Origin: Tribonema minus
Taxonomy: Eukaryota; Sar; Xanthophyceae; Tribonematales; Tribonemataceae
DNA: 64,000 bases
Assembly (NCBI GenBank): GCA_017506865.1
Contig: JAFCMP010000515.1
Coordinates: 310,001-374,000 of the forward strand
Direction: 5' to 3'
Shown: positions 7,001 through 31,200 of the stretch, one piece after another
Layout: every line of letters starts with the position of its first letter
Position numbering within the stretch: position 1 is the first letter of the stretch
Translations under genes and position numbers: made by a program
Notes under the pieces: model-generated
Seen by the model: the letters and a program-made list of their open reading frames with translations, nothing else
Told to the model about the DNA's origin: nothing
The model's database searches: none

Positions 7001-10000
7001 ATGGGACGCCGCTGGCTTGTGGCGACATGTGCTGTGCATGCAAGCTGATCCGTGCACTTTCTAGGAGACCTGCCACTGCTACCTATTTAAGGAGGCTCTG
7101 CTGGTCCTTCGCGAGTATCTGTGCCAGCCCCCTCCCTCCGCATAGTACACCCTCCCGTGCTGTACACCGCCTGCTGTTGCACAACCCTCTGGCTGCCGAG
7201 ATATGACAGAGGTGTGTGTGTATGTGTGTGTGAGGGGGGCACCCGGTACCATGTCAATGAGGTCGGGCGCCTAACCCTAGATAGCGCTGGCAGCACGTGC
7301 GTGTTAGGCGCCCAGCCCTGGTGCCTGGTGTGTGTGTGGTGGATATTGCATGGTGGTGCTGCTGTGCGTATGGCGCGCAATGCAGCAGCCCCACTACTTT
7401 TCAGTCTGTTGAATTTGACGCATTCATGCAACGTCTATGCGATGCTGTTTACTGGGTGGCTGATGCAGGTCCTGTGCAGTTGTGCGAGGCGATTATATCT
7501 GATGAACCGGACGGGCGAGTAGCAGAAACCTATCAACCTCTTGCAGATGGTTCTATCGCACGAGTCCTGGAGCTCTGCCCGGATCTTATCAAAAGGTATG
7601 TAGGCATTTGTACACCTAACCCTAATGCTAATACTAACGCTCAACTCACTCTTCACCCTCACCCTCAACCTAGTGTACACAAGTGTTGCGCTTTACCTAC
7701 TTGTCTACATATGTGCATTGAGCTGCGATGTGCTTATGGGAGAATTGAGCGGGGGCAACCAAGCCTGGCTCTGAGTCATGCCAACTGTGAGTCATGCCAA
7801 CTGAGCCATGCCATGCCATGCCAGCGCGTCATGTTACGTACACGCGTGGGTCGCCCGTCACGCGTGCGGATGAACCGAGCAGCTTCATTCATTGCGGCGC
7901 ATTTGACGCATGTGCCGCTTCAATGCACGCAGATCGATGGTGGCCATCATTTTGACATGGACTGTCGGAGTCCAAAGCAAAATTGAAGTTCCTCGGAAGT
8001 TTGTCTACAATGTTACGATGTTGTTGAAACATGAATGCGATGGCGACTGTTGTCTCTCCTTTAGCGTGGGAAACCTTGTGCTGTGCCATTGGTTGAGAAT
8101 GCACCGTGTGCGGTAGGGTGCTGACATTCCAACAGTGACAGTGCATGCGATACAGTGGCAGCGCATTGAAAGCCAGAACCAAAGGCCTGGGTCAAAAATG
8201 CACCTCGTGCAAATCTTGTGTCACACATGCCGTAAAGTTGAGTTCCACTAGAATGACAATCCATCACTGCGTCATCAGCGTTTGAACAACAAGTGCGCTC
8301 ATGGATCTTTGCATCTGACCTCAATGTTGAACTTGTTGCTGCTGAGTCACAGCCTTGCTTCCCCGCCGGAGCACGAGGGCTTGTTGCCAGCAGCGAAACA
8401 GTTCCTTCGCACTGTTATGCGGTCGTCCCGTCGCGTGGACGGCGCAGTTTTTGTTCCAACCGGCGCGCTTCACGTCATGGAGGCGTTGCATAGAAGGCGA
8501 GCACATCACAAAGCACAGCTATTGTTCAATCTGCTGCTTGATGGCCCGATGCGTGCGCTTTTGTGTGCTGATCACAGGGGCGCACCAACGTGCACATCAC
8601 ATTTTTTGCCTCAAAAGTCCCAACCTAGGCTGCAGTATGTGAGGTTGTGTCTCCGTCAATGACTGGCACAGAAGGTTTAATCCATGAGTAACGTGGCATG
8701 CAGGCAGTCTTCGCTGCGCATGTGCTGTTGCTGCCATGAGCTCTGCATTGAGCACTGCTGTCGACCGCGCTGCGCAGCTCAGCATCCTGCAGCTGTATGC
8801 GTCTTCTGCTGTGCCATGCCTCCACGCTCATACCACACCCCGTCATACGTTCTTTGTGAGCGGTTCCGGCAGTTACAAAGTTTGAAAATCATGAATGGAA
8901 CCCTCCTGCTCGCCCTGTTCAGCTTCCCGAAGCACCGCCTGCTGCTGGCAGATTTTGACAGTGTTGGCGAGCCCTCCGTCACTCGCAAGTCCGCCGCTGC
9001 ATACCAAGACACCATTACAGGCGCCCACCTGGCGCCATTGGTATCTACAAGGTGTGCACCCATGTCGCGCTGAATTTCAGGCTGATCCTGAGATGTGTCA
9101 GGTGCCACGGGTTTGCGATGTCTACATGTACAGCGTGGAGTGTCAGTGTTTGAAGTACGTACGTAGCTTCGTGTACGTATAACACGAGCGGCACCATATG
9201 AGGTACACAGATGCTCTGTGCGCGTGCGTCTCGTGCATCACCCCATGTAGTACGTGCACACCTGTGTGCACGGCACGCTCGTCACCACATGAAGTACCTA
9301 CATACCTATGCGTACATACATAGTACCTACCTCGTTGCTGAGGAGGCCTGGCGGACTCTTGAAGTCTGCAGCAGTGAGGCTCCCACAACAGGATGCTGCT
9401 CTGCCAAAACCCGATACTTCAAGTACATGTCAGCACTGTGGTCCTTAGCTGGGGCACTGCACGTCACATTCTAACTGTCGCATCATGCTTGAAGAGACAT
9501 CCTTGTGCTTTGGCAGTCCTGCTCCTGGTAACCGTAACTGAAACTGTAATTGGTAACGACACACTGCAGAGTCGCAGTAGGCAGACCTGCACGGGCCCTC
9601 CAGTCAACATGTTGCTACGTGCACTCGATCCCCGCACGGCTTTGCGTTGTGACGCTTGACAGGTGCCAGTTCTATCTGCTGGCTGTCGCATGTTTGTGTC
9701 GCGGCGCGCGTGAACTGTTGTGCAGTGAAGTGTTGTGCACGCATGCATCTGATTTCAGGTGCACGGTAATCTGCATAGCCTACATAAACAGCAGTAAACG
9801 CATGTTACATGGATGTGATAGGTGTGTTACAAGTAGCATGCGCACTTGGCTACCTTCGCCAACATGTCGCTTCTCATGACCGCTACAGGGCCAATATGTT
9901 GGGTCGGCTGGTTGCACTTGCACTCCGGGGGGTCGGAGCACGGCTGCCAGTATTGATGATTTGTTTTGTTCTGCAACAGCAGCATCCTGTTGCGCAGCAA

Positions 10001-10746
10001 TCAGCAGACACGCCAGAAACCGTCCGCAGCGCACATGATGGAGCCATCTTGCCCGTGCAGCCGCCAATTTGTGGTACGCTAGCAAAGGCTGGTTTTAGCA
10101 GCATTCTAGGCTGTGTCAACAACGCATGTAAGCTCTGTGCTGCCCCAACGCTTTGTCTGCTGTGCCTGAAACCTATTGAACTCTTGGCCTCTCTCCTTCG
10201 CAGTGATCCAAAAACGGGCTTCACAGAGGACCAGTCCTCGTACCTGCTGCCGCCAGGCTCTGCAGACCTGTGCTTCCCCACTGACTTTGGCAGCTTGAAG
10301 CAGGTGAGCTCCAGTCACTCAGCTCATGGCGTTTACTGCAGGACTGCGCTTCCAGTTTTGCGCATCGCAGCATGAGCCAGTCAGTGCACTGCCAAAGTCC
10401 TGTCTTCTGCCATAGATGACATTACATGTACATAGCAGTTGTTTGGTCTGTCCGGCCTGTACTTTGGAGGAAGTATATGGATTGCTGAGCTGCAGGATTG
10501 AGCCAACACACCTGCCACCATGCCATGGACATGATTCACAAAAACATTTTGCGCCTTTTCCACTTTCCAACCTCCGCACAGGTGTACTCTCAGGTGACAG
10601 GCCGCAGCGGCGGCAGCGTTCACGTCATGAAGCAGAGCGCCTTCTTTGAGCTCCAGAAGACCGAGGCAGCAGCGGCTCAGACCCGCAACGGCTACAATCC
10701 CATGCTCGAGGATTTTGGCAATTACTCGATGCTTATTGGGCAGTGA
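4004..10746 (+). CDS. DUF185 / NDUFAF7-like SAM-dependent methyltransferase
   Basis: Nine exons join in phase: 4004-4144, 4509-4627, 4916-5194, 6847-6908, 7469-7595, 8353-8496, 8923-9051, 10204-10303 and 10582-10746, predicting 421 residues, close to plant homologues. Landmarks are a TPLEVFAPHYS segment, the SAM-binding glycine loop IYEAGGGAGANAG, LPHDKVAY, FVPTGAL, HRLLLADFD, a CFPTDF motif and the C-terminal NGYNPMLEDF. The family includes NDUFAF7, which methylates an arginine of a complex I subunit in mitochondria; this copy most resembles the plant branch, whose substrate is not known to me. The intron after 8496 starts with GC instead of GT (AG|GCGAGC). The first exon is the weakest call: its donor is poor and it was chosen because phase and length fit. 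The intron from 5195 to 6846 is full of copies of the preceding exon edge. Confidence 0.82.
5142..6010 (+). repeat. Tandem copies of an exon 3' edge plus splice donor inside the following intron
   Basis: The last 53 bases of DUF185 exon 3 and its donor (5142-5200) recur, diverged, at about 5284, 5440, 5633 and 5842, with a fragment at about 5998. Spacing is 140-210 bp. Each full copy keeps the GGCCGTGCTATGTATTGG block and a following GTGAGAG- or GTAAGAG-type donor. Shorter partial units lie between them. Confidence 0.85.
7211..7233 (+). repeat. GT-rich microsatellite in DUF185 intron
   Basis: This is a short TG dinucleotide run interrupted once, within the intron between exons 4 and 5 of the DUF185 gene. 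Confidence 0.7.
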
Positions 10747-11090
10747 ATGGATGAAAGCATCTACTTCAAAGTACTAAGTTGCGTTTATCTGTGCTTTTTG
10801 AACTATTGTGCTGGCACTTTCAGCGTGTGTGGGTGTTTGCACTGGCAGCAGGTTGTAATGCATGCTGGCAGGATGCACATACGTGGGCAGCGCTTCGCAG
10901 ATTGCTTGCAGTGAAGGCGCACAAAATTGCTGCGCATCAGCACGTGGAGTGACACCGTGGATGTGTATTTAGGGACCATCGATAACCACAAAGAGCTACG
11001 GCCATACGTGACACCCCCTTTGAAGGCAGCATGGCCCCCTAGCATACCCCCTTAAACGCAAAGTGTGTTGTGTCTATGCACCATTGTCAC
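10747..11090. other. Convergent 3' intergenic region
   Basis: This lies between the stop codons of the DUF185 gene (plus) and ARL16 (minus) and must hold both 3' UTRs. No canonical AATAAA signal or coding segment was seen. Confidence 0.5.
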
Positions 11091-12201
11091 CTATGGTGTA
11101 AACGTCGCCGTTGCGGCCAATGCCTTGCTTGTCTGTGGATCCCTATGAAGAGCGCGTGCCAACTGCAGCACGCGGGCAACGCCAGCCCCGCTTGCTGCAT
11201 CGGTGTGGCAGAGCGTAAAGCCTGCCTTCCAGTTGTCCACGAGGTCATCGATGTGCAGCAGCTCTTGCAGTGTTGCTAAATCTGCTTGAGTCGTCGTCCC
11301 AACCTTGTTCAGACACACAATGACAGGCTTTTGTTGTAGATGGTCGTGCGCGATCAGAGCATGCAAGGCGGCGGAAGCACCGTCTGCGTTGCTTACAGAA
11401 CTGGCATCGATCACAAAAACGAGGGCATGGCAGCGATGTAGATAAGCTGGCCACATGCGCGCCATCACCCCCCCAATTTCTCGGCACACAATCGTTTCGT
11501 TCTTTTCGGCGCCCCACCGCACCTCTTGCAGATCTTGCCCCACCTGGACAGTCAGCGGCAACAGAACAGGAAGAGGAGAAGAGGCGCATGAACGTCAGCC
11601 CCTATAAGGATGTGACATGAAGTTGAAGGGGAGATCCGTTGAGCCATTACATTGTTGCATCATCACATTTGTACTCTTGGGTTCAAGACATGAGCCACGA
11701 AGGCGCTGGCTTGGCTTACCGTGGGCTGGGCAGACAGATCCACAGTCGGCGGGATGGGCGTTGAGCCGAGCTTGCAGTGTTCGGATCTGGCAAGACCTGC
11801 AGTGCAGAAGGCAGCAAGACATTGCAGGCTGCTCATAACCTACATCATCGTTTACATGTGCCAGCATTGATGCAAATCCTGCGGCCTGCTGCTCTGTGTG
11901 GACTAGCTGTGTGCACACGCTCTCTGTTGTGCAAGATTCAGATAAGCCAGGCTACGAGTAATTTTGGACACCGATTCGCTGGTAAGAAAGGCGGGTCATT
12001 GAGGCGTCAGTAGATTTTTGGGCTTGACTCACATTGCAGCTGCCGAATGAGCACAGTCTTGCCTGCGCCTGAAGGCCCCAACACCAGCAGCTCCGGCGCT
12101 GCCAGTGCTAGTGGCGTGACTTTGGAAGTTGCCCGCGACCCCTGCCTTGTAAGGAAATGCAGAACTCCACGCTGCCGACTCACGGCAAAGAGCCTTCTCA
12201 T
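11091..12201 (-). CDS. ARL16: ARL16-like small GTPase
   Basis: Three minus-strand exons (12201-12033, 11796-11720, 11543-11091) join in phase to give 232 residues. The P-loop is GPSGAGKT (residues 42-49). A PTVG switch-I motif is reconstituted across the second junction. The switch-II element is REIGG (103-107) in place of the usual WDxGGQ, the hallmark of ARL16 among ARF-like GTPases. ARL16 acts in ciliary and Golgi-linked traffic in animals; its role in algae is not established. Two oddities are the N-terminal extension of about 37 residues before the G domain and the guanine-specificity motif, which reads NKVG (161-164) rather than NKxD. Start ATG at 12201 is the only one in frame before the P-loop. 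The gene is divergent from PAP/fibrillin, 215 bp away. Confidence 0.85.
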
Positions 12202-12416
12202 GGATCAGCAGCAGCGCTGTCATTTCTCGCCGCTGTAGAGCCACAACAACAGGCAAGCACAGCGGCTGCACACACAGCCAGTTTTCCGCCGTTACGATTT
12301 GGTGTGCCCTTTCACACACAGCTCTACGAAGGCAGAGAGATCACTGCGACGGAGATAGCCACCAGCAAGGCCTGTGCGGGAGCCATTGCTGAACTTTGGC
12401 GCAGGCGACAAAGAAG
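12202..12416. promoter_or_regulatory. Divergent intergenic region, putative bidirectional promoter
   Basis: These 215 bp separate the start codons of ARL16 (minus) and PAP/fibrillin (plus). No TATA box or known operator was recognised, so the assignment rests on orientation alone. Confidence 0.4.
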
Positions 12417-14660
12417 ATGAAGGCTCCCATGCTGATCGCCACAGCGGCTGTGGTCATTGGCTACGGAACTGCATTTTTCGCAGCCAGGCCTCGGTCAACT
12501 GTTGCTCGTGAGTGCTACACGCTGGTTGGTGTCTCATATTGCAGCAGCTTGTCTGCTTTGTGCGCTGTCGAGACTCGCCTGCAATTTCTTATTGCTGTTC
12601 ACCAGGATTGCGCTTCACCACACTTCGCCGTTGCGTCTTCGTTTTGTTGCCGTTTCCCGATGTGCAGGGCCAAGCGCTGTTGGAGCGCTGACGATGCAAG
12701 TGTCTTACGACTACCAGGGTTCCAGCAGCTCTGCGTACGAGGACAAGCTTGACGCCAAATCAGCACTCCTGTCTGCCATTGGGTCTGGGGTCGGCAAGGG
12801 ATACTACATGACTAGTCGCTCGGCAGCCAAGTGAGCGCAGCTTTGTTTACAAGTAGCATGCCTTGCTGCCTGCATCCCATTGCAACTGGTCTTGACATTG
12901 CTTGTTGCTGAAGGCAACGAGTTTTGCAAGTAGCTTGCCTTGCTGCCTGCTTCCCATTGCAATTGGTGTTGATGTTGCTTGTTGCTTGAGGCAACGAGTT
13001 TTACGTTGTGTACCCGTTGCGCGTGTGTTTTTGCAGGGACATCAAGAAGGCCATTGTGGATCTGGAGACTTCGGGGGCAGATATGGCAGTGAAGTTCCCA
13101 TCGTGAGTCACTCATGAGCTGCTAACTCATGAGCTGCTAACCTTAACAGGCCATGCTGTCATGAACAGCGGCTGCAAGCTGCACAAGATTTATGCTGCAG
13201 CACAAAGTCGTTGTGCCGCGACGGCTGTGTAGTGTCTAGGCATTTCTGCAGCTAGGTTATAATCACTGGGAGGTCCGAGGCTGTGCAGCAGCAGCTACAG
13301 AGCAGCGAGCGCTGCCGGTGTTGCGCCACATTCGAAGCAGGAACAGAAAATTCTGAGGTTGCATGTGAAGTGTACGCCATACTGCACAGCTGTAGGCAGT
13401 GCGGGCCACCAGCAAGGCGCTTCATTGCAAGCAACACAGTTATATTCGAGCAAAGCGTCGATATACAACATACATGTATACATTGGCATGCCATGAGCCC
13501 GGCGCAGCATGACCACATATGCCTGCACAATCTGCTCTGGCACCAGGGGGGCACCACCTCTGGCCAGCGTGCTCATGACGAACATTGCCACTCAGCTGCT
13601 GCGCAGGAGCAACATCGTTGATTGAAACACCAAGCACCACTTTTGAACTGCTCACTCCCAAACCGTGCCTGCTTGCCTGCCGTACGCGCAGCGACTTTGC
13701 AACGCTGGATGGGCGCTGGAAGCTGCTGTACAGCAGCAACATCTTTGGCGTGGGGAGGCTGTCGCCGCTCACCCTGGACGAGGTGTACCAAGTAGTTGAC
13801 ACCGCGGGCAACTCCATCAAGAACGTCGTGTACGCAACGCTGTCGCCGCCGCTCTTCGGTGAGTAGTCATTGCGCACTTACGTAGTGTCGTTGGTGAGAG
13901 CAGTCCTTACGCGTTCACGTATGCGCAAGGAAGTGGGGTCCTGAACATGCACACTTGTTGAGGCAACGTCAGTGTCAGGGCTTGGCTTACGTCAAGTTGG
14001 TGTGCGCAATGCACTGCGCATCGTGATGATGGAGTGCGTCGCGTATGCGGTAACTCTACCCTAATGATGCTGATGAGATGTAGGCGGTTTTCGCCCTGCT
14101 TCAACGAGCGCGGTCTGCCTAAAGTATGCACAAGAGGCAATCAACAGGTTGGTGGGAGACGTTTCGACCTAACCCCAACCCTAATTTCAGTCCTGGGGAA
14201 TACCAAAGGGGCGCTGGAGCTATTGCAGGCTGCTGCAAGGTCGGCACCCCACCACGTGCACATGCATTCGCTTTCTGTGGCATCGCTGCCTGAAGCTTTC
14301 ATGCTAACACACACAGTCCAGCAGTGCAGGCGTGACAGCATCTGCACCCCAGTAGAGCTGCTCTGCACAGCCAAATCTTGTCTGTAGAAACTTGGTTGAT
14401 GATGAGTGCCATAGCGCAGCACTGCGCTCACTGTGACACATGCAGCTGCCAACGCTTCCTTGATCGCACTGTTGTACTCCCTGCATGGCCGGCTGGCCGA
14501 CACGCCATTGTGCACAGCCAAATCTTGTCTGTAGAAACTTGGTTGATGATGAGTGCCATAGCGCAGCACTGCGCTCACTGTGACACATGCAGCTGCCAAC
14601 GCTTCCTTGATCGCACTGTTGTACTCCCTGCTTGGCCGGCTGGCCGACACGCCATTGTGT

Positions 14661-14692
<32 letters not shown>

Positions 14693-16860
14693 TGCGCGCA
14701 ACACTCCGCAGTAGAGTGTACATGTGTTCGTAGACTTTTGGAGTACGCGCGTTTGTAGTACAGTGTTGGTTGAAACACTGTGCTCCTCATTGTAGTGTTT
14801 GTTGAAACACTGTGCTCCTCAGTGCTCAGCTGGCCCGCATGACATGTGCTCACAACAATACAGACGCACACATCGCCATCGCATCGTAGGGATAGAGTCA
14901 AACTACACATCATAGTACCAGGGCGATGCTGCTCGCGGCCACGGCGCCAAAACACGAGCTTGCACCGTGCTCACGCACACCTGCTAGAGGTCGTCAGTCC
15001 GGCACGCTGCAGCTGTACCGCTTGTCGCTGCTCCACAACGTTCGCGTAGGCCCCGCTGCTACCCCCAACCCTGACCCCAACAGCAGCATTGTCACAAATG
15101 TCTGTAGCAGTCGACATGAAAATATACGCTGCTGCGCGTCACTCGCATGACGAGGCAGTGCTCCACAGGCCGGAAAGCGCCGCAGCATGCGCCCCGTTGT
15201 GCTGCTGCGGCCTCTTCCTTTAGTGAAACGAATCAGAAGATCGTAGAGCTCTAGATGACAAGGAGTGGTTAGCCGCAAGTGCCTTCCACCAATAACCGTG
15301 GTCGCCGCTGCTGCAGTCATCGGCCACGAGAGTCAAGCTGTCGCACCATATCCACAGTAGTCTTACACACGCCATTGCTGCTGGCCCGCCGCCGCACTGC
15401 AGAGACGACATGGGGGCGGTTCCCGGTGCAAGCCGTTGCCAATGCGGCAAAGAGGGTCAATGAGCGCATATCCTTCCCCGTGGACTTCGCCCTGGACCAC
15501 ACCTTCGAGATCACAAGTGCAGAGTACCCTGCTCAGGTGGGACATGGTGTTGAAGCTGATATTTGAAGTTGGTACTTGGTGTCTCAGATGAGCCGCGTCG
15601 CGGTGTCAAGGCCGATGATGCAGCAAGGGGGGGGGTTGGGGGGCTACGTTTTGGTAATTCAATCAATGTATTGATGTATTCTGTATTCACACGTACTAGA
15701 AGTGCCTTAAAAGTTACATCTGGAAGTATAGACTATCGTATGTTTACGACAAGCAAGAGATTTTGAAAGACGATCCACAATGACCAGTAAACGACGACGA
15801 TGACGAGCCGTAAGATTGCCCTGAGCACTGCAACACACATGCGCTGGCACACTTGCTAGTCTATGGGTACATGCTGGGTGCCAGGAAGTTAGTCTTGCAG
15901 CAAGTGTGCAAGTGTCATGGATGGTCGTGTAGAGTGATGAGAGGCATGCGTTCGTGGTTTTGGGGGACATAATGCAAGTGCGCAAAGTCACTGTATCAGG
16001 AGTGTGTACTGGACTTTCTGCAATAATGCCTCCGATGTCTCCCGCACCCCCTGCAGTGGCGTGATTCACCCTTGATCGAGTTGGTGTAGAATTTTCCCTG
16101 GAGATAAAGACTGCGCCAGCTGAAACTACCGGCGCTAATGGACTCCCTTCACTGTCGCATACGTGTGCCTCTGCAGTTGAAGATAGCACTGAAGGAGACC
16201 AAGATCGTCAACTGCGAGAAGCCAGAGCAGCGGTCGTTGGCTGTGCCTGCGATCCGCCCGTTGGCGCAGGTGGGCAAGCGTTGAGCAGTGCTGCACGTGC
16301 GATGCGTTGATGAGCAATGCTGTATAGAGCAATGTGGAGCATTGCTGTCGTCAGCAACGCGCACTGATGGTGCGCCGCTGTGACTGGCGCGTTTGGTGAC
16401 GTGTAAATTTACTTGTACTTGAGACACCACAAATGGTATCTGTGAACATGTACAGGGTTGTATGATTTATCACAAGCTGTCGGGTAGATTGGGGGCAATG
16501 CAGCCACGGCTACATATGTTCCCAGTCCGTGCTGCGGCGCAAGCAATGTGCAACCAACGCTTATATATAATGTATGGATGTGGTCATTTGAGCTGCTGAC
16601 ACTAACGCTGCAGACAAAACCTCTCTCAATATTCACACCCTAGTGCCCAGCTCGAGTTCCACCAGTGTAGGGCTGCTCTACTGTGCAACACCTCACTCGC
16701 GCTGCGTCGCCGCATGCAGATCGGAGCCGGCAAGTTTGACACCACCTACATGGACGACGACCTCCGCATCAGCAGGGGCACCCTGGGAGAGATCCGCGTT
16801 TTCCAGCGGAGCACTGAGGATGCCTCCGTTGACTACAGCAGCTCTGCCAACTACGCATGA
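12417..16860 (+). CDS. Plastid lipid-associated protein (PAP/fibrillin)
   Basis: Seven exons join in phase: 12417-12507, 12668-12830, 13037-13102, 13692-13858, 15403-15536, 16177-16269 and 16720-16860, giving 284 residues. The first exon encodes a hydrophobic signal-peptide-like stretch (residues 4-19) ending GTA, followed by FFAARPRS, a small basic segment. This resembles the bipartite presequences with Phe at the cleavage site used by red-lineage secondary plastids. The mature part has PAP/fibrillin landmarks: an N-terminal helix pair, DGRWKLLYSSN, a central beta-barrel region and the C-terminal TTYMDDDLRISRG. Fibrillins are lipocalin-like proteins of thylakoids and plastoglobules that bind isoprenoid quinones or other lipids. 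The family is clear; which fibrillin class it belongs to is not. Introns 2 and 4 contain local tandem duplications. Confidence 0.9.
12849..13006 (+). repeat. Tandem duplication of about 80 bp in PAP/fibrillin intron 2
   Basis: Two diverged copies share CAAGTAGC, CTTGCTGCCTGC, CCCATTGCAA and GGCAACGAGTTTT blocks in the same order. They fill most of the intron between 12830 and 13037. A separate 16-bp unit is doubled just after the next donor, near 13110-13142. Confidence 0.8.
14365..14692 (+). repeat. 147-bp direct duplication followed by a run of 31 C, PAP/fibrillin intron 4
   Basis: Copy 1 (14365-14511) and copy 2 (14512-14658) are almost identical, with one obvious mismatch, so the duplication is recent. 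A run of 31 C (14662-14692) follows directly. Both lie in the intron between 13858 and 15403. Confidence 0.92.
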
Positions 16861-17826: not shown

Positions 17827-20495
17827 CTAATCCCACCGACTCTTTTTCAAACCCCCCAAGTCTGGCTCCGCTGCGGGCCGATCCGCGTCGCTGCCGTCGC
17901 TCGATGCGCTCTTGCTGTGCGCTCGCTTCTCCCCCTTGCCCTTCGCCGCCGCTGCTGCCGCTGCTGCTGGCGGCGGCGGCGGGGGCGCGGGCAGCGGCGG
18001 GCGCGGCGGCGGCGGCAGCGCCAGCGGCACGCCGTCAATGTCTTCGTCGTCGCTGCTGCTCTCGGCAGCAGCGGCAGCGGCAGCAGCGGCAGGTTGAGCA
18101 GCAGCCGGCGCCTCCGCGAGCGGCACGCCGTCCACATCGCTGTCCGATCCGGAGTTGTTATCGCCGGCAGCACTGGGCTCCGCCCCGAGCGCACGGCCCG
18201 CCGCCTTGGCCTTGACGTACGCGTTGAGGTGGTTGAGGCGGTTGAAGAGGTCGAGCGCGCTCATCGCGTCGGACACGTGGAGCCCCGCCTGGCGCGCCTT
18301 GCGCTCCAGCGCGGCGCGGTCCATGTCCTCCTCGCGCACGTCGCCCGCGGCGGTGGCGCCCTCCACCGCAGCCATGTCCGCGGGCGCGCGCATGAGCGAC
18401 GCCTCGAGGCCCGTGAGGAAGAGCGGCGGGTAGATGGACCAGTCGGACCAGACGGCCAGCAGCGCCAGGACGCGCTCGCGCAGCTGGCGCGCCGTGAGGC
18501 GCCCCGCGATCCCCCGCAGAGCCGTGCCCAGGGCCTCAAATACCTGGTTTGCAACGGAGGGGGGGAAATGGTAGTGGCGGTGCGCGTGCGGAACGTGACA
18601 CTGTGGATCAGATGTCGTCAATATGGGGGGGGGGGGGGGGGGGTGCGCGGGAAGGTCTGCTTGGTGCGAGTGCACGGCAAATGCGCAGCGAGGTGTACGG
18701 ATACAGGTACTGTGTGCCTGCGATTATGCTGATCGATGCGCCAAGGGCCTGACTGCATTTCTGCTACGGAGGCGTGATGGCAGGTGTGTCATGTTGGTGA
18801 GAGGGCCCCATGCTGCTGTTGTCTGACCACGGTGACCCAACAGAAAACGCATTTGATACCACAATCAGCTGTAGTTTTGGAGCACACGCTCAATGGCTTG
18901 CAGCTGACTGACACAATGTCACCGCGGCGAATATGCACACCGCTCTGCAGCACACACTAGCCATAGTACTCTGCAGCGCACAACGGGGTGAACAGTACAG
19001 CTAAGCAGCACACAGTAACCAGAGTGCTATGCCACCCAAAACCGAACATTTGAAGGCCCAACACCATGCAGCCTTGCGACCATGCACATGCAAACAGGGG
19101 GCATGTTATGCGTGCTCTGCTCAAGTACTTCTGCCAGTGCACAGTGCACACAACTCTTGCGCAATACATACGAGTACATCTGCTGTACACCTGCAGTACA
19201 CCAGGCCGAAGACACCCCCTCACCTGCGGCAAGCAGCTCTGCAGCAGCGTCCGGAAGCTCGTGGCGTTCCGCACCGGCGCCGCGCTGTTGTGCAGCACGT
19301 CCGACACCAGGTACAGCCGCGCCACGATCACCGGCGGCGGCGGCGGCGCCGGCCCATCCTCACTGATTATCCTTCCCGCCTCCATCAGGCTCTCCGACAG
19401 GATCTCCACCACGTGCGCGCTGCACTCCGAGTTGTCGAGCGCTGCCCCCATAGCCTCGCGGATGAGGCGCCGACTCGGCATGGTGAGTCGCCCCAGAAGT
19501 TCGCGGAAGTTGTCCTCCTCGGGCTGCGGCATGCGGCCCACGGGTCCGCCGCGCTCGCGCTCCGCCTCGCGCGCCTTCTCCAGCTGCCGCCCCGTCATGT
19601 ACTTGTACCTGGGGCAGGTGAGAGTTGGAGGGGTGGAGTGCAGACAGCGGAGAAGGCATGGAATGAGCGCCATGCACTCGCGAAACCTGCGTCACTGAGC
19701 ACAGCACTGCGCGGTTTGTGCTTAGCACCTGTCCTCACCAGCAAACATCGTGAGTTGCCCCCAACAGGAGACATCATAATTTGCCTGCCGGTAGCCATAC
19801 ATACCAGCAACGGGCTGCCTGCTGCACATGCGATGCACCCAACCATCCTGTAGAGCCGACCCAGATTTACGTCGTGCATGGCGCCTGACAAGTACGTTGT
19901 CAGCCCAGATTGACGCGTAGCACACCCGTAACTGAAGCACCGCACCATTACCATGCTGGCATACCTCTCAGCCTGCGCGCCTGGGCAGGGTCGATAGCGA
20001 CATGTAACTGCCACAGCGCATCACACACGCTTGCGTACCTCTCCGCCTGCGCCTTGCCGGGGTCCTTGGCGGCCTCCTCCCTCTCCTTCTCCATGCGCTC
20101 CCGCCGCCGCTCCCTCTCCCTCTTCTTCTCCAGCTCCCTCTCCTCCTCGCTGTCCGGCTCGTCCTCCGGCTCCGCGGGCGGTATCCAGAACGCCCCCCCC
20201 ACCACCATCTGGAACGGGCGCTGGCGCCACCTGCGCTCGCGGTCGCCCATCGCGAACGCGTACGCGCGCCAGCGGTAGTACGTCCCCTCCTCGCTCGTGT
20301 AGTTGGTGAGGAAGTCGAAGTCGGGGTTGCTGGACTCGCGCTGGATGAGCCGGTCCTCGAGCGCCGCGCCGTCCTTGGCGACGTAGCGCGCGGTGCGGTC
20401 GATCAGGTAGCGCCGCCCCTCGTCGCGCGGCAGCACCACCACCACCTTCTGATCGCCCTCCTGCATCTCGCGCTCAGCGAGGGGCTCCGCGCCGC

Positions 20496-20530
<35 letters not shown>

Positions 20531-21582
20531 TCCACAGCGCGCGGCGCCATCGACGCATTGACGGCGGCGACCGCGGCCTCGGCGACCGCGCGCGCCGCGC
20601 TGTTGGCGCTGGCCGGCAGCCCCGCGGAGGCGAGCAGCGCCGGCAGCGTGGGCGGCGACGCCGACGGCGGCGGCCCGAGCACGGTGATGGCGTTGGGGTC
20701 ATTGGGCTTGGCGGCGGCGCCGTCGCGCGCGTCAAGCGTCTGCGGCGGCAGGTCCGAGACCTTGGTCTCCTCGCCGATGCTGCGCTCGAGCTTGCTGATG
20801 GGCTTGCCCCAGCCGATCTGGATGGACATGCCCTCGACGTCCTTGCCCTGCATGGCCTCGCGCGCCGCCTCCGCGTCGCCGCGCCGCCAGAAGCTCACGA
20901 AGCCGCAGTTGCGCCGCCGCGCGCGCTCCTCGTCTGTGCGCGGCCACATGATCTTGATGCTGTAGATCTCGCCGAACGCGCTGAAGATCTCGTTCAGCCG
21001 CTCCTCCGTCACCGTTGGCGCCAGAAAACCGATGTAGAGGTTGGTGCTCGTGGGGTCCCCGTCCTCGATGGACGCCCTGCCGAAGTCGCCCCCGCCCCCG
21101 CCCACCGGCGCCGCTCCTGGATTCTCCTGCCGCTGCTTGATTTCTTCGAGGAAGGCGTCCATCTCTCGCCGTTTCTTGGCAGCGGCGGCAGATGCAGCGC
21201 CGCCGGCGCCGCCGGGTAAGGCAGGGCCGCCGCCGCGGGAGTCGTCCCCACCGGGGCCGCGCGGCGTCCCTCCGCTCTGGATCTCTAGCGCCACCCTCTC
21301 CATTTCGCTCATGGGCTTCGATTGAGGAGCATAAATGCTGCCGCCGGTCTTCAAAAAGCTCTTGCCGCCGCCGCCGCCGCTGTCGCCTTCAAAGCTGGCG
21401 GCAAACTCCTGAAACAGGCTCGCTGCCTCCGCTTCAGCTGCCTTTTTCTTGGCCTCCGCGGCCTCCTTCTCCTTCTGGAATCGGGTCTTCTTCTGCTTGC
21501 CCACCTCGAAGCTCTGAAGCTTGGAGGCCGTCAGATTTTGCTTGCTTCCAGGCTTCAGCATGGCGAAGGTGGGATCAGACAT
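17827..21582 (-). CDS. U2SURP: U2 snRNP-associated SURP protein (SR140)
   Basis: Three minus-strand exons (21582-20039, 19608-19224, 18543-17827) join in phase to give 881 residues. The N-terminus is charged and coiled. An RRM spans about residues 178-257 with LYIGFLAP (RNP2) and CGFVSF (RNP1). A SURP/SWAP module follows at about 393-440 (ESSNPDFDFL). A CID domain, related to RNA polymerase II CTD-binding domains, spans about 525-700 (VARLYLVSDVLHNSAA), and an acidic, Ala-rich tail ends in KKSRWD. This domain order is that of U2SURP, a U2 snRNP-associated splicing factor acting in the nucleus. Start at 21582 gives the conserved short basic N-terminus; an in-frame ATG at 21636 is possible. Intron 2 has a 19-base G-run on the plus strand, so C on the sense strand. 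The gene is divergent from the HMG-CoA synthase fusion. Confidence 0.92.
18625..18643 (-). repeat. Homopolymer of 19 G (C on sense strand) in U2SURP intron 2
   Basis: It lies 82 bp upstream of the exon 3 acceptor in the minus-strand sense, so it reads as a poly-C tract in the pre-mRNA. Confidence 0.85.
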
Positions 21583-22075
21583 GATGATGCTGGAGTTGAC
21601 CTTGTGTGATATGCTCCCTGTATGCACTGGCCGCACTCAGATCCTCTCCTATTGAACGATGCCCCCTAGTGACAATGATGTCGCCAGCGCGGCGGGATCC
21701 TGTCCCTCATCAGCCACAGCGTTGTGCTTCACAGCAAGCGAAGTCAACGCTCAGCAGCGAGGTGACCGATTTCCCGGGGTGTCTTTCGTGAAAGTTTCGT
21801 CACACACCTACCTCGGGACCTATCGGCAGCGCTTCCTGCTTCCTGTGCCTTGCATTGCTGTGCTACTGCTGGAATCGGACAGGTACGTGCAGCGCCATGG
21901 CGTCTGTATATCCGAACCTTGTGCCAAAATCACAGTTTGAATTGCGCGACGGAGGACAAAAATTTGTCGATGGCGTTGGCACATCTACTGGCGCACTTGC
22001 CTTAGTAGGTCGGTGTCCGAGTGCCCTACCTGACGCTTCAAAGCGCACTACTCTTCCTTGCTATGCAGCAGGGCT
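21583..22075. promoter_or_regulatory. Divergent intergenic region, putative bidirectional promoter
   Basis: These 493 bp lie between the start codons of U2SURP (minus) and the HMG-CoA synthase fusion (plus). No TATA box or recognised regulatory site was seen. Short open frames here show no family resemblance. Confidence 0.4.
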
Positions 22076-25000
22076 ATGAATGGCACAGCACATCACGCGG
22101 CAGGGAACTCGGATGAGGGAGGAGGATCGCGGCCGACCAACGTCGGCATTCTGGCTGCGGAGGTGTACTTCCCCAGCACCTATGTCGATCAGGCGGAGAT
22201 GGAGAAGGCGAATGGCGTCTCCAGCGGCAAGTACACCATCGGCCTGGGCCAACTGGAGATGGCGTTCACCGGCGACAGAGAGGACATTAACTCCATCGCC
22301 CTAACGGCATTAGCGGGGCTACTGGAGAAGTTCTCCATAGACCCCAACGATATCGGCAGGCTGGAGGTGGGCACAGAGACCCTCATCGACAAGAGCAAGT
22401 CCACCAAAACCGTCCTCATGTCCCTGCTCGGCGATAACCAAGATGTGGAGGGGGTCACAACGGTGAACGCCTGCTACGGAGGCACCGCCGCCCTGCTCAA
22501 CTCCATCGCGTGGATAGAGAGCAGCGCATGGGACGGCCGCTACGCCATCGTCGTCGCCGCCGACATTGCCGTCTACGCCGAGGGCCCCGCACGGCCCACG
22601 GGCGGCTGCGGCGCGGTGGCGGTGCTGATCGGGCCCGACGCGCCGCTGGCGGTGAACGCCTGCGCCCGCACCACGCACGCGTGCGACGTGTGGGACTTCT
22701 TTAAGCCGGACATGAGCAGCGAGTACCCGCGCGTGGATGGCGCACTCAGCCAGTCCTGCTACCTGCGCGCCATCGACGACTGCTACTCGCGCTTCGCGGA
22801 CAAGAAAGAGCGATCTACCGACGCCGCTGCTGCCACCGCCGCGCCGTACACCGCGGAGAGCGCCGACCACTTCCTCTTCCACTCCCCCTACAACAAGCTC
22901 GTGCAGAAGTCGTACGCGCGCCTGTTCTTCACGGATGCGCGCCGCTGCAGCGCCGCGGGGCGCCCCCTGCCCCCCCACCTCGCCCCCCTAGAGCCCTGGC
23001 TGGACGCCCCCCTGGAGGACACGTACAACGACGTCAAGCTCGCGGCAGCGCTCAAGGGGGTGGCGGCGGCGGCGTACAAGGCGCGCGTGGCCCCCGGCTG
23101 CGTGCTGAGCCAGCGCATCGGCAACACGTACACGGCGAGCGTCTTTGCCAACATAGCGTGTCTCGTGGACAGGGAGGGCGCCGCGCTCGACGGCGCACGC
23201 GTCGCCGTCTTCTCCTACGGCAGCGGCGCGCTCGCGACGCTGTACGAGCTCGTCGGCCGCGCCCCCACGTCAACAGCAGCCGGCTTCACGCTCGCGCGCA
23301 TGCAGGCGTCACTCGCCCTCGACGAGCGACTCGCAGCGCGCGAGAAGCTCACGGCGGAGGACCTCAGCGCGGCGCTGGCGGCGCGCGCGGCGGCGCACGA
23401 CGCGGCGCCCTTCGCGCCCGCGTACCTGCCGCAGCGCCTCTTCCCGGGCACGTTCTACCTGGCGGAGGTGCGCACGGACGCGACGCGGCGCTACGCGCGC
23501 GTGCCTGCCGACGCGTTGCGCTTGACCGGCGGCCCGCTGCTCGCCGCCGCCGCCGCGGCGAGCAACGGCAACGGCGTCGCCAACGGCGAGAACGGCACTC
23601 ACCACGCTGCGGAGGCGGCGGAAAGCGCAGCGGCAGCAGCCGCAGCAGCGGCGCCGGCGCCGGAGCAGCTGCAGCTGACGCTGCAGCCGCTGGTGGTGGC
23701 GGGGGTGGCGTGCGGTCTGCCGGGGCAGGCGAACGTGTTTGAGGCAGACAATCTGGAGAGGCTGCTGAGCGGGACGAGCTTCCTGGCGCCGCTGTGCGCG
23801 ACGAGCATCGGAGCGCTGCTGGAGAAGAACGTGGTGCAGGTGAGAGGAAACTGTTGTGGGCATGAGCGATATCAGGTGGAGATTGCATGTTTGCGGGCCT
23901 TTCGTGGGTACATCACGGTGGTTTGGTCGCATGCCAATGTGCGAGGAGGTAATAGCACAGTCTGCGGCAGGGCCTGGCGGGACTGCAGTACATTCACTCC
24001 ATGCTATGTAGACTCCCCTTGTGTTTACCAAAATGCGCAATGCCAGCAGGCCCCATGTGCCCCATGCACACCCGCTTTCGAAACGTCATGCATGTACGCC
24101 AGCGGTGACTGTGTGCACACAGCTGCTCTGCCGTTTACTGGCTGTGAGTAATCAGAAGCACACAGAGTGATGTTGCTCAACGCCCAAGCCAGTGTAGTTG
24201 TTCAAGCAGTCCTTTTGTTATGCCAGCATTGACTGTCTGCATACAGCAGCTGTGCTGTTTACTGCTTGGCTGCGAGTCATCAGAAGCAAAAGCCAGTGTA
24301 GTTGTTCAAGCAGTCATTTTGTGTCCAGCATCAGCTACAGTAATCGAAACAACACAGCAGTCAGGGCAGTGCGTAGTTTCTGTGGCAGTACGTACCAGAC
24401 ACAGGATGTACACTTTTGCATTCAGCACTGGGTTGAAGTTGACAGCCGAATTGGACTCGCTGAATTGTGCTTTGATTTTGATAGTGCTTGAATGGTTGAT
24501 CAGCATCTAAGTTGAACTTGAAGTTTAACAGTTGATGTTACCGTGTAGTTTATTGGCACCATGCAAGACAGAGGCCGCGTTGACACAATACACTAAAGAG
24601 GCTGTGTTGATGGATGCATGGAGTCTGATGCCACTGGCGGTGTCGCACCCAGCACGTGGTGTTCCTCGGCTAGATCATTGTCCATCATTTGAAGAGCCTT
24701 CTGAGGCACTTGCTTGGCGAACCCTCATTGGCACTCACCTGCTCCCCTGCACTGCCTGTCTGCTGCACATCACCAATTAACCCAACTCGCTAGTGCTGCG
24801 ACACCCTAATATGGCAGTACTTGTGAGTGCCTTCCGCCTTCTCCCGTGACCAAGCTGCTGACACTTTGCATATTGGACTTCGCTGCCTTTGCTATTGCAG
24901 TTGCGAAAATCACCGCCGGAGCGCATCGCCATTACGGAGGAGAGCCAGACCATAAGGGTGGCCGCCAGGCTGGGCAGCATGGACCTCACTAAGTACGGCG

Positions 25001-27020
25001 TCAGCGCCAGCATTGCGGCCACCATGGACAAGGCCGTCCAGGTCAGTGGCCAGTGCCTCAGTGCTCCTCAGATGCCAGGGTACCTGCTGTGTCTGACGTA
25101 CACGCCTGCTGTTTTTGTTAATGGGTGACATTGTTCTGGTATGATGACATGGTGAGTCTGCGCCCTCAGCAGGCCTTTATAGAAATGCAACCTCGCCCAT
25201 CATGGGCTTTTGACTGGCCTGTACATCGGAAGGAAAATCTGTCACCACGGACACAAATGGCGGGTGAGACGGGGCGGTTGTTTGCTGTTTCAAGGCCACT
25301 GTGCTGGCATCATGCATGTATCAATGAAACATGGGTCGTGTGCGCATGACTGTACATCATAGTTGCACACTGCAACAGTCAGTCAGCCCTATGGCTGCGC
25401 TTTGCATTGGCTTTGAGACTGCGCTCGCGCTCTTATTGGGCTGCATGCTGGGCTGTGTGTTTGATTACGGTACAAGCAGGACCGAGACAGGCCGCTCCAG
25501 AGGCTCGGTGTGAGATTTGTCACATTCAGTGAGGTGCATCCCATCCCTCCCCTACGCACCCCTAACTCAGTGCAAGCGCCCCCTGTCACTCTCCTCGTCA
25601 CGCACCAGCTCTCACTCCCCCAGTTACCCCTATCACGCACCAGCGCTCAACTCACCCAAGACTCCTCTCACTTCACGCCCCCCCCCCCCCCCCCCCCCCC
25701 CACCCTCTGTGCCAGGTGGCGGTCGCGGCGGGCCTGGAGGCGCTGCGCGACGCGGGCCTCGTCAAGGGCGGCCCCGCCGCGGCCGACTGGCTGCTGCCCG
25801 AGTCCATGCGCGACAGCACGGGCGTAGTCTACGCGACCAGCTACCCCGCGCTCGACGCCGCGATAGGCGAGGTCATGCGCTTCCTGCGCAGCCGCTGCGT
25901 CACGCGCGCGCGCAAGGGGCGCCTCGTCGCGGCGCTGCGCGCGCGCATGCGCGCGCACGGCACGCTCACGGACGCCGACGAGGAGTCGCTGCGCAACCTC
26001 GAGCGCGCCGTGGTCACCAAGTCCACCGTCAACCTGTGCAACCTCGCGCACGCGGCGGAGGAGGCGGAGGCCGCGCTGAGCGACGAGGACGAGGGCGGCG
26101 ACGGCGCGTACGCCTTCGACCGGAAGTTCCTGTTCCGCATCCTGGTCCTCGGGAACGCGCAGCTCGCGCAGATCGTCGGCGCGCGCGGCCCCAACATGCA
26201 GACGAACGCGGCGTGCGCGGGCTCGACGCAGGCCGTCGCCATGGCTCAGGACATGCTGACCGTAGGGCGCGCCGCGCGCATGATCGTCATCGCGGGCGAC
26301 GACGCGTCCGGCGACGCGCTGCTGCCGTGGGTCGGCAACGGCTTCCGCGCGCTCGGCGCCGCGAGCATCGCGGCGACCGCGGAGGCGGCGTCGCGCCCCT
26401 TCGACGCCGCGCGCAACGGCATGATCCTTGGCTCCGGCGCGATAGGCATGGTGCTGGAGACGCGCGCCGCGGCGGCGGCGGCGGCGCGGCCGCTCGCGGC
26501 GCGGCGGCGCTGCGCGCGCCTGCTGGAGACGCAGATCTCCAACAGCGCGCACCACGGCGCGTCCATGGACAGGGTCCACATCGCGCGCGAGATGGAGCGG
26601 TTTTTGGCGAGCGTGGAGGCGCGGCACGGCGTGACGCGCGCCGACATTGCGGCGCGCGGCGTGTACTTCAGCCACGAGACGGGGACGCACGCGTCGCCGA
26701 CGGCGTCGTGCGCGTACAACGAGATCTGGGCGCTGCGCGCGTGCTTCGGCGCGCTGCTGCCGTCGCTCACCGTCATCAACACCAAGGGCTTCACGGGGCA
26801 CCCCATGGGCGTGAGCTTTGAGGACGTCGCCGCGGTGCAGGTGCTGCGCAGCGGCGTGCTGCCGCCGACGGCCAACACGGTGGACGTCGACCCGACGCTC
26901 GGCGACCTCAAGCTGAGCCGCGGGGGGCGCAGCGACGTCAAGTACGCGCTGCGCTTCGCGGCGGGGTTCGGCAGCCAGGTCGCGCTCGCGCTGTACGCCG
27001 CCTCCGACGAGGCAGCGTGA
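22076..27020 (+). CDS. HMG-CoA synthase fused to beta-ketoacyl synthase
   Basis: Three exons (22076-23839, 24901-25041, 25716-27020) join in phase 0 to give 1,069 residues. Residues about 15-465 are a complete HMG-CoA synthase, which condenses acetyl-CoA with acetoacetyl-CoA in the mevalonate pathway. The catalytic residues are visible: Glu101 (VGTETLIDKSKS), Cys133 (NACYGGTAA) and His269 (HSPYNKLVQKS). After an Ala-rich linker (about 480-535), exon 1 itself begins a second domain (VVAGVACGLPG). Exons 2 and 3 continue it as a FabF/PKS-type ketosynthase with Cys802 (NAACAGSTQA), His955 (SHETGTHASP) and His997 (GFTGHPMGVS). Because both domains start within exon 1, this is a true fusion, not two genes. 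No targeting sequence is evident, so it is probably cytosolic. HMG-CoA synthases are normally about 450-520 residues. No ACP or acyltransferase domain is visible nearby. Confidence 0.9.
24120..24312 (+). repeat. Tandem duplication of about 105-130 bp in HMG-CoA synthase fusion intron 1
   Basis: Two blocks recur in the same order: CCAGTGTAGTTGTTCAAGCA at about 24189 and 24292, and a TTTACTGGCTGTGAGTAATC-like block at about 24133 and 24258. Confidence 0.75.
25678..25701 (+). repeat. Run of 24 C forming the polypyrimidine tract of an intron
   Basis: This C homopolymer ends 14 bases before the acceptor of exon 3 of the HMG-CoA synthase fusion (AG at 25714-25715), the position of a polypyrimidine tract. 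Confidence 0.9.
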
Positions 27021-28282
27021 CGCGCGCGCGCGCGTGCGGGCAGGCGTCGTTTGTGTGTGTTCGTGGTGCCTTGTGTCGGTGGAGCGCGCGCGCTGGCGGG
27101 TGCTGAGCGATGATGCATCAGCTGCGGGGGGCTGTGGGTGCTTCCGCGCGGCGCGTCAGCGTCGCACGCAGCCAGTGCAGAGGGGGGGGGTGAGTAGGGT
27201 AGGGGTGCCGATGCGCACTGGTCAAGCGCACAGACACCAATGCATTTGATTTCGGGTCGGCTTAGCACGGCGGCGCAGCTCTAGCCCCCTGCCGCTGGGA
27301 TCCTGCAGCGCCCACTTGTGTGTGTGGAGCGCAGTTAAGAGATCACGCCTTGTGAAGCGAATCATCCACCACTGGTAGCAGTGGCGGCGCCGTGGGTTTC
27401 TGCGCTTCGGCGCGTGTGCTGTGGGAGTGGGTGCAAAGCTGAGCTGGAACTGCTTCGCGAAGGTGTTACTAAGCGCGCCCGGCGCGTGATGTTGCGCGTG
27501 ATTTCAACTTTATCATTGACGCTCCCCATACTTAGATCACAGCCGGCCGCTGTGTCGTTTGCGGCGTATAAGTGCTAAATAAACGTCAGTGCATTTACGC
27601 ATTGCAATCTTGCAAGGTGTCATACACTGTGCCCCTTTCTGCTGTAGCGGTCTGTGTGCTTGTGCTGCACCGTATCAGGCAACGCACGTGCGCGTTGCAC
27701 AGCAGCTTCAACCAAATTTCAGTTGCCTCCCGCCTATGCCATTACACGTGAGGCTGCCACACTTGGTGCTGGCATGATGGCTGACCGACAGGGGGGAGAC
27801 GGGCAGCAACAATGAAAGAGCTGACGCCAGCAGCAGCGTTGGCACGCGCACAGCAGCGGCGGCGGTGGCAGCCTGTTGCTGCGCGCAATCAGCAGCAGCG
27901 GTGTGGTGGCGGCGCTGCGTGCACGGCGCAGCAGCAGTGAGCAGCGAAGGCATGCTATTCGCGGCGTGGGCAGCACCTGCCTGCTGTTGAGCGCCTGCGA
28001 CGGATGTACACGTGACATGCGTGCAGCACCTGCAGTGGGCGTAGTGCGAACAGCGAAGGGATGCTGTTCAGTGCGGCGCGGGCGGCAGTGGCTGGACGCA
28101 TTCAACGGATGTACACGTGACATGCGTGCAGCGGCAGCAGCGGCAGCGCAGCGGCGCAGCAGCGGTTTTCTCCGCGGCGCGGGGGTTCCTCCGCGCCGAG
28201 AACCGATCGATCTCGAAAAAAGTGGAAGTGCACACCAGGGCTTTGCTGCACACACTTGGCCGCGCGTGCGACTTTCCATACT
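27021..28282. other. Intergenic: 3' UTR of the fusion gene and 5' leader of the DUF1015 gene
   Basis: An AATAAA occurs at 27578-27583 and could serve the HMG-CoA synthase fusion. The second half contains CAG/GCG-rich repeats, including a direct duplication at 27941-28133. No protein-coding segment was supported. Confidence 0.45.
27941..28133 (+). repeat. Direct repeat of about 107 bp upstream of the DUF1015 gene
   Basis: Two diverged copies begin with CAGCGAAGG (27942 and 28051) and end with GGATGTACACGTGACATGCG (28002 and 28107). They are followed by CAGCGG microsatellite-like sequence. The CACGTG core in each is an E-box-like palindrome, but a regulatory role is only a guess. Confidence 0.75.
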
Positions 28283-31200
28283 ATGGTCCGAGTGCAGCCT
28301 TTCAACGCATACCGCCCTCCTCCAGAAATCGCTCGAGAGGTGGCTGCTCCGCCTTACGATGTCCTGGACAGCGACGAAGCGCGTGATGCCTGCAGCAGGC
28401 TTAGCACCAAGACATTCCTGAGGGTGAATAAGCCAGAGGTCGACTTGCCTACTCACATCAGTCAGTATGACACGGCTGTCTACGAGAAAGGCAGGGAGAA
28501 CCTGCAGGAATTCATCGGCGCCGGCTGGCTGCGGCGCGACGCCACGCCCTGTTTGTACATCTACGCTCAGATTATGGGCGACCACGTGCAGCATGGCATC
28601 TGCGCGGGTGTGCCGGTCGAGGAATATGCCATGGGCCTCATCAAGCGGCACGAAAAAACGCAGGTCAAGAAGGAGAACGACAGGACTCGGCTAACGTATG
28701 TGCAAAACGCCAACGTGGGCCCCGTCTTTCTCACCTACAGGGACAACGCTGCAGTGAACTCCATCGTGAATCAGGTCATCGCCAGCCCACCGGAAACAGA
28801 GTTTGTTGCGGACGATGGCATTGGGCACAAAGTCTGGCCAGTGCGCGACCCCTACATGGTGCGAGACCTGCAACGAGCCTTCGCAGCGGTCCCCTGCAGC
28901 TACATTGCGGATGGCCATCACCGGAGCGCATCTGCCTTTAGAGTTGGAGAGATGAAAATCAAAGAGGCGATTGCGAGAGGCGACATCATTACTGGAGAGG
29001 AGCCCTTTACTCACTTTCTGGCGGTGTTGTTCCCTGCATCGGAGCTGCGCATAATGGAGTACAACAGGGTGAGTGGGCAAATGATAGGCGCTGCTGCGAT
29101 GTAACATTCGATAAGCGTGTATTATTTGACACTGCTGGCAGTAGGGCTGTCAGCAGCTCGCATCAGAGCAACTGTCACTCTGCTTTCACGTATTGGTGTC
29201 GCAAAATACATGGACAAAACAGTGGTCCACACTGGTTATACGACGCGAGGCTCACTGCAGTAATTCGCATCATGCTCACAGTCAGCTCACTTTCTGACAG
29301 ACTCAATTGCCAGCAGTTTTGCAACATGAGGCGCAGTGGGTCGCGCAAAGTACATATATATGCGGCAGAAACTGTATATGCGCAGGGCTGTTGGTGTTCA
29401 TGCCTGGTGCGGTCACCGATGAACTGACCATCAATATAGCAAAGCATTTAGTCATTGTGACTATAGCATGTTCGATTCAACTCAGCAAAGCATTGAGTTT
29501 TTGAAACTGCAGCTTCTTTGATGCTGGTTGCTGCCATCGAAATGTGTACATGCGCAGACATGCGCATTTGCTGTTGGTGCAGATGTGCCATCGCCTGCAT
29601 GACGATTACAATTGAGGCAGGCAGACTACTTCAACTTTGACATGTGGTGGTGACAGAGTGTTGTCTGTATACATGGCCCCAGCTATTGTGCTCAACGATG
29701 GAGACTCGTGATCCTCTGTCATTACCTTACCTTGCATTCATTCCAGTCCATGTCACTCCTAGACTAGCAATGTTCGCTACTTGATTGACATCAGATCTCA
29801 GGCAGGGGCTTTCTTACGCGTAATGCTTGGCATTGGCGCAAGCTGTATGCTTGGGGCACCATCTCTATCATCACGTGTCGTACTAGTAGCATCAGCTGGC
29901 TAATGACTGTCACACGCAATTCAAAGCGGCAGACACGTGGCAACCGTTGCATGCATTTCAAGTGGCAGCCAAAGTCATGTCAGCATGCACTGACCGGCAA
30001 CTCTCACATGCGCTTCAACTGGCAGGTGGTAAAGGACCTCAACGGACACACGCGGGAAGCCTTCTTGGAGCTTGCCACGCGGTGCTTTGATGTCACACCG
30101 CTGGCGGAGCGGCCACAGAACATGGCGCAGCGGCGGCATGTGGGCATGTGCGTTGGCGGGGACTGGTTTGAACTTGCGGCGAAGCCCGGAAGCTATGAGG
30201 AGACGGACCCTGTGAAGGGACTGGATGTGCAGGTTTGTGCGTATATATACTCTATATGTATGCAGTATGGCAAACTGTTGAAGTTCAAAACACCTGGGCG
30301 CAGGTGTAAACCAAGGTGCACGCGTTGCACTCGGTTCCTGTACACCGCACTGTTGCTGATGCTCATACGTGGTGTCGAGGTGTGAATGACGCTCAGTGCA
30401 ACAGTCAGGGGCGTGCACATGGTTTACAGGTCTCTTGTGTCGGCGTACACAACGCTCAACAGAGGCTGCTGAACCATTGAAATTTCAGCACAGGCAGCAG
30501 CCTGCTTGTCAGCGACTGGACATTGCCAGGTGGCCACCAACTTGAACATCGCTCCTCAAGGGCTGTCGTGATAGTCTGGACTTCTCCCACACAGCCGCAT
30601 GTGTAGACAAGACAATGTCGTCATGTAGGCTCTGCCCATACACACTGTGGAGCAAGCTGAAGCATCAGAGCTGATATTGTATGTTGACAGTCCTTGTTGA
30701 TGCGTGACTTGCGCTCTGCAACGACTTTGTTCTGGTACGTAATTATGTCCTTTCAAAAGCTTAAGAACACTCTAGCCACTCGCCGTTGGCCGCGTCACCA
30801 AAGGATACGGCGTGCTTGGACTTAACCTGTGTGGCGTCTCATTCGAACGAGGTGCTTCACTGAGACCTGCGCGAACCGCAAAATCGCAGTCCTCCATTCA
30901 GACCTGCGGGCTGTCGCCATGCCTCCACCATTGGCAATGGCTAAACGTGGCATAGAGAATGCATTTTCCTGGGGGCGTTGATGTGTGCAGACAATGAATG
31001 TGGCGGCTCAGCACCTCATGTATGCCAAATTCAAGTTGAAGTTGAAGTTGGCAGTTGGCCGCTCTGTATGCTGTTGTGTTGCTCGGTGACGATGGACCAT
31101 CGCATCTTTTCATTTGTCCTGAGATGGCTGGAAATATTTCTTACAGCTGTGATCGCACACGTCTCTTGTCCAGATCGTAGCGCAGCAGTATCCGGATTTT

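Follow-up and report, generated by a model that had tools for sequence, protein, structure and literature searches.

Isoprenoid synthesis, that of sterols included, depends at an early step on 3-hydroxy-3-methylglutaryl-CoA (HMG-CoA) synthase (HMGS), and the locus analyzed here raises the question of what a ketosynthase (KS) could contribute when it is built into the same polypeptide as this enzyme. The gene in question lies on the plus strand of a 64,000-nucleotide stretch of the Tribonema minus genome (contig JAFCMP010000515.1, positions 310,001 to 374,000 of the forward strand), which is termed the window and to which the coordinates of the gene refer. Fusion of HMGS and KS in one polypeptide was confirmed and is far beyond chance. 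The architecture itself has been known since 2009.

Gene structure and reality of the fusion

Joining of the three exons listed in Table 1 yields a protein of 1069 amino acids (aa) whose sole stop codon is the terminal one, in agreement with an earlier note on this DNA, made from its letters alone, that had described one phase-consistent gene encoding a single polypeptide. The HMGS, the linker and the start of the KS (aa 532-588) are read in a single uninterrupted frame of exon 1, and because this exon alone holds all three, the fusion is independent of splicing, just as the note had maintained. Within the introns, an in-frame stop is first met at 24149 and at 25126, respectively. Five further in-frame GT-AG combinations, located at most 9 bases from the donors, all gave shorter proteins, and the pair 23839/24901 and 25041/25716 was used since it gave the longest product. 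Both junctions are spanned by prokaryotic relatives of the KS, whose alignments extend from KS residue 1-10 or thereabouts to 528-536; frame, splice consensus and homology together suggest that both introns are removed. A run of about 23 C (25680-25702) is situated just 5' of the acceptor of intron 2.

Table 1 Features of the HMGS-KS fusion gene in the window.
Feature	Position	Strand	Description
Exon 1	22076..23839	+	588 codons: complete HMGS (aa ~19-478), linker and first 57 KS residues
HMG-CoA synthase catalytic region	22130..23509	+	aa 19-478, with E101, C133 and H269
Ala-rich linker	23510..23668	+	aa ~479-531
Intron 1	23840..24900	+	1061 bases, GT-AG, phase 0
Exon 2	24901..25041	+	47 codons, within the KS
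Intron 2	25042..25715	+	674 bases, GT-AG, phase 0, poly-C tract near 3' end
Exon 3	25716..27020	+	remaining KS with C802, H955, T957, T959, K992 and H997; stop codon

The HMG-CoA synthase half

Pfam scanning placed HMG_CoA_synt_N at aa 19-190 (E 1.7e-80, 269.4 bits, cut-off 25) and HMG_CoA_synt_C at aa 196-475 (E 7.9e-66, 223 bits, cut-off 25.1). E101, C133 and H269, which we take to be the catalytic Glu, Cys and His of HMGS, were found where the earlier note had put them in what it called a complete enzyme, and the surrounding motifs align with those of HMGS entries in the PDB. Comparison with solved structures gave a full-length match to human mitochondrial HMGS (2wya; 409.9 bits, 1.8e-121), 405.5 bits to human cytosolic HMGS (2p8u) and 400.4 bits to the plant-type 2f82; the two human enzymes share the same Glu, Cys and His (E about 1e-120) but carry no attached KS. 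The best entries of the polyketide beta-branching type were CurD (5kp5) with 79.6 bits and PksG (4yxq) with 67.1 bits.

Across the 158-Mb genome the PF01154 model had a single candidate and a single match, namely the fusion gene, which is thus the only HMGS detected. HMG-CoA reductase was found as three exons on contig C513, with one weak further match on C412, and mevalonate-diphosphate decarboxylase as four exon matches on C554 spanning residues 2-304 of 305, pieces that each score below the whole-protein cut-off and one of which has a stop inside the matched stretch. Given a canonical HMGS half, its status as sole HMGS and the presence of these two pathway enzymes, the gene product is very probably the housekeeping HMG-CoA synthase of the mevalonate pathway. 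The first 36 residues of the fusion protein include three D/E and one K/R with no obvious leader, suggestive of a cytosolic location.

The ketosynthase half and its relatives

The ketoacyl-synt domain (PF00109) was reported above cut-off (E 4.4e-12), with its best stretch at aa 783-886, and Ketoacyl-synt_C (PF02801) was not reported in the fusion protein at E 0.01. Among solved structures the best match was FabF (71 bits), covering KS residues 246-528 only. C802, H955 and H997, by which the earlier note had assigned the domain to the FabF/PKS type, are all in place, and K992 is present as well; none of these residues, nor T957 or T959, varies among the 81 prokaryotic relatives (81 of 81). The Cys-His-His and Lys site thus looks intact, and the domain is assigned to the FabF/PKS class. 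Since C802 is kept, it does not belong to the Cys-less decarboxylating type known from beta-branching systems, a distinction that the note had already drawn.

Scanning of prokaryotic genomes with the KS produced 420 relatives, and analysis was confined to the 80 with the best scores; residue and locus counts are based on 81 relatives. Within the best 80 of 420, the top scores belong to Heimdallarchaeota and Thermoplasmata, followed by Acidobacteria, Myxococcota, Actinomycetota and Chloroflexota. The KS also matched 235 plasmid records, with at least 80% query cover in one only, from Nonomuraea gerenzanensis (L013), where the match falls on the second KS (KS2) of a 2555-aa protein that contains, besides KS2, a first KS and acyltransferase (AT), acyl carrier protein (ACP), ketoreductase (KR) and dehydratase-type domains; pairwise alignment with it is full-length at 45% identity. 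At 80 of the 81 loci the open frame that holds the KS measures 890 aa or more, although contig edges truncate many of these frames, and in L037 it starts at aa 67 of its frame. The exception is L021 (Heimdallarchaeota, 743-2380, +), a stand-alone KS of about 545-548 aa from the same group, which lies near genes that by eye resemble CTP synthase and purine-synthesis genes.

Domain architecture of the relatives was determined by domain scans on two proteins, L013 and L015. The latter (Heimdallarchaeota, 4646-15370, +) is a 3575-aa megasynthase of the order NMO-KS-AT-KS2-ACP-KR-phosphopantetheinyl transferase, and frames of 3265-3663 aa with a KS of the same group occur in L017, L018, L020, L022 and L067, from other Asgard and Thermoplasmata contigs. 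By its motifs NAAC, SHETxT and NTKGFTGH and its full-length homology, the fusion KS is a member of the KS2 group of prokaryotic KS-AT-KS2-ACP-KR megasynthases. It has the same catalytic motifs as the KS2 domains of L013 and L015, which sit inside a long synthase, whereas in Tribonema the domain is joined to HMGS without AT, ACP or KR and lies outside any KS-AT-KS2-ACP-KR polypeptide. None of the 81 loci of relatives (3 to 25 kb) contains an HMGS detectable by tblastn at E 1e-3. Searching of the Tribonema genome revealed no second KS of the KS2 group, the three matches being exons of the fusion gene, and a complete megasynthase elsewhere in the genome was rejected on this ground.

Two trees were used to place the KS. 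In the first, built by a quick method from 83 rows (the query, 81 relatives and one outgroup), the query joins L021 with a support of 83, a grouping in which long branches meet according to the warning of the tool; BLAST from L021 found other Asgard KSs nearer and ranked the fusion KS last. In the second, of 49 rows, from which L021, the outgroup and 32 relatives were dropped, the query has a branch of 3.37 and stands next to the archaeal rows, while 39 bacterial rows form a set that excludes it (support 98). With the best 80 of the 420 relatives, the KS appears to be placed close to archaeal rows and outside the sampled bacterial ones, subject to the flagged long-branch effects, and we claim no donor. 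A viral origin was also considered and set aside: the KS and exon 1, run as single-protein queries that reach close relatives only, had no relative in viral_contigs.

Comparison with described systems

Table 2 of Morris et al. 2009 (PMC2705460) contains a row 'Beta-ketoacyl synthase & hydroxymethylglutaryl-CoA synthase' for Ps128154 / Tp260768 / 16649, from Phytophthora sojae, T. pseudonana and P. tricornutum. It is one of 21 multidomain proteins for which the table records the same domain order in the oomycete and the two diatoms. The earlier note's remark that no eukaryotic enzyme with this layout had been described is therefore overturned. As in Tribonema, that row sets both domains on one polypeptide; it prints the KS first, whereas HMGS comes first in the Tribonema fusion. 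Being tabulated as common to an oomycete and two diatoms, the domain pair looks old and retained. PMC12168105 and PMC6330534 take Phatr3_J16649, which judging from the shared number is presumably the 16649 of that table, to be the HMGS of the P. tricornutum mevalonate pathway, and the accessible text of these two papers does not mention a KS on it; PMC6330534 prints the same identifier for HMGR as well as for HMG-CoA synthase. According to PMC6642084, red and green algae without the mevalonate pathway still keep HMGS, and its accessible text has no match for 'ketosynthase' or 'fusion'. The portion of the literature on the fusion that was covered holds no test of KS function in it.

Two further systems can be compared with the fusion. 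The archaeal thiolase/HMGS/DUF35 complex (PDB 6esq, 6et9) presumably holds an acetoacetyl-forming enzyme beside HMGS, with separate subunits and a thiolase in place of the covalent KS of the fusion, and its HMGS matches the HMGS half of the fusion with only 43.7 bits. The other is NphT7, which belongs to the KAS III type and stands alone, as opposed to the FabF-type KS joined to HMGS here. NphT7 condenses acetyl-CoA with malonyl-CoA to acetoacetyl-CoA and aids mevalonate output (PMC4857421); it shares with the proposal below the malonyl-dependent formation of acetoacetyl-CoA that feeds HMGS, and thus provides a precedent for the reaction.

Possible role of the ketosynthase

We tentatively favor the possibility, plausible and already raised in the earlier note as a substitute for thiolase, that the KS uses a malonyl unit to form the acetoacetyl thioester on which its partner HMGS acts. 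An acetyl unit would be loaded on C802, a malonyl thioester would be decarboxylated by H955/H997/K992, the acetoacetyl thioester would be released beside the HMGS site, and HMGS would join it to another acetyl unit, forming HMG-CoA, so that the first cytosolic steps of the mevalonate pathway would become irreversible and malonyl-CoA-dependent. Substrate and product of the KS and the transfer between the halves are all proposed here. A role tied to HMGS is favored because the KS has an intact site, because no other HMGS was detected, and because the fusion is said to have been shared since before the split of diatoms and oomycetes; a useless domain would be expected to be lost, and instead its site is intact.

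Several observations weigh against this proposal. Thiolase models detected four loci in the genome (C28, C24, C35 and C46), and a further weak match on C138 sits in a KS gene. The C28 thiolase is of the acetoacetyl-CoA type, its best PDB matches being acetyl-CoA acetyltransferases (E 2.9e-101), and its presence makes it less likely that the KS is indispensable. In favor of the proposal, however, this protein begins MITVARRCGSSTLLRLNSLAALRSGTTQQHFSTSGG, with four K/R and no D/E in its first 36 residues, and by inspection its N-terminus resembles a mitochondrial leader, unlike the start of the fusion; by their motifs, the C24, C35 and C46 thiolases look to be of the beta-oxidation type, and a cytosolic thiolase is not evident among the four loci. 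Also against the proposal, Pfam detected neither ACP nor AT in the fusion protein, and its KS relatives, as far as the two scanned proteins tell, work in ACP-bearing megasynthases. The end branch of the query is long in both trees (2.6 to 3.4 changes per column), and positions near the active site are altered: G804 replaces S/T of the relatives, G958 replaces Y/F, and H960 replaces a P found in 81 of 81. With such a branch and such changes, activity of the KS is not assured.

The same observations lend some weight to a KS that no longer condenses and either is a scaffold or adjusts HMGS by sensing or decarboxylating malonyl thioesters, while thiolase supplies acetoacetyl-CoA: such a thiolase is in the genome, no ACP or AT accompanies the KS, and its branch and active-site surroundings have diverged. 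An idle domain, however, would not need the six catalytic or phosphopantetheine-contacting residues checked, all of which are intact, and we regard this explanation as unlikely, if a serious contender. Somewhat less probable is an action in trans, in which the KS, merely tethered to HMGS, would condense a different substrate with the help of an ACP belonging to a fatty-acid or polyketide synthase. Its relatives do act within ACP-bearing megasynthases, and the genome has just one locus for a type I KS-AT synthase (G000:C30:220607-224252, minus strand), at which the only strong acyltransferase match of the genome adjoins KS matches and which resembles only the first KS and AT of L013, besides a weaker acyltransferase match on C10. 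These two are the only acyltransferase matches in the genome, so partners would be few, and the domain is joined to the only HMGS found.

The branched-polyketide role that the earlier note had entertained, an HMG-ACP-synthase type of beta-branching enzyme with its own ketosynthase, is very improbable. The pairing of an HMGS fold with a KS is reminiscent of bacterial beta-branching cassettes, but the HMGS half is far nearer to the CoA-type eukaryotic enzymes (410 bits to human mitochondrial HMGS, at most 80 to CurD or PksG), it is the sole HMGS in a genome with mevalonate genes, the KS Cys is kept, and the 64-kb window has no other PF00109, PF01154 or PF00698 match; the type of the HMGS, the finding of only one HMGS and the retained Cys led us to discard this candidate. 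Least probable of all is a gene-model artefact in which two adjacent genes are read as one. The gene model does rest on genomic sequence, but a KS product starting after HMGS would lose conserved KS residues encoded in the shared exon 1 frame, and the same domain pair is tabulated in other genomes (PMC2705460); two separate genes were rejected because HMGS and KS start stand in that one frame.

Gene neighborhood and other observations

The window has 68 open frames that reach 200 aa; ten of them were scanned, and neither ACP or enoyl-CoA hydratase-like neighbors nor a pathway cluster around the fusion gene were found among them. The downstream neighbor (window 28121-29101, +) encodes a DUF1015 protein, and the upstream neighbor (window 19951-21636, -) a protein with RRM and Surp domains. 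Elsewhere in the genome, L101 and L102 (G000:C334 and C112) are decayed, stop-interrupted fragments of a red-type Rubisco large subunit, apparently plastid DNA in nuclear contigs. Together with an 18S/ITS stretch, these fragments are consistent with an alga whose plastid is of red type, probably a stramenopile.

Implications

Extended beyond this gene, the proposal would be that stramenopile-type algae feed cytosolic mevalonate through a malonyl-dependent KS built into HMGS, that acetyl-CoA carboxylase rather than thiolase gates entry into sterol synthesis, and that the KS came from an ancient Asgard/bacterial megasynthase KS2 group; in this full form we consider it doubtful. Activity of the KS would mean that a large group of eukaryotes, which judging from the 2009 table and the present gene takes in diatoms, an oomycete and this alga, starts the mevalonate pathway by a non-textbook route, with sterol synthesis coupled to malonyl-CoA and, through it, to the making of fatty acids. 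It would also bear on the engineering of terpenoids in diatoms, where Phatr3_J16649 counts simply as an HMGS.

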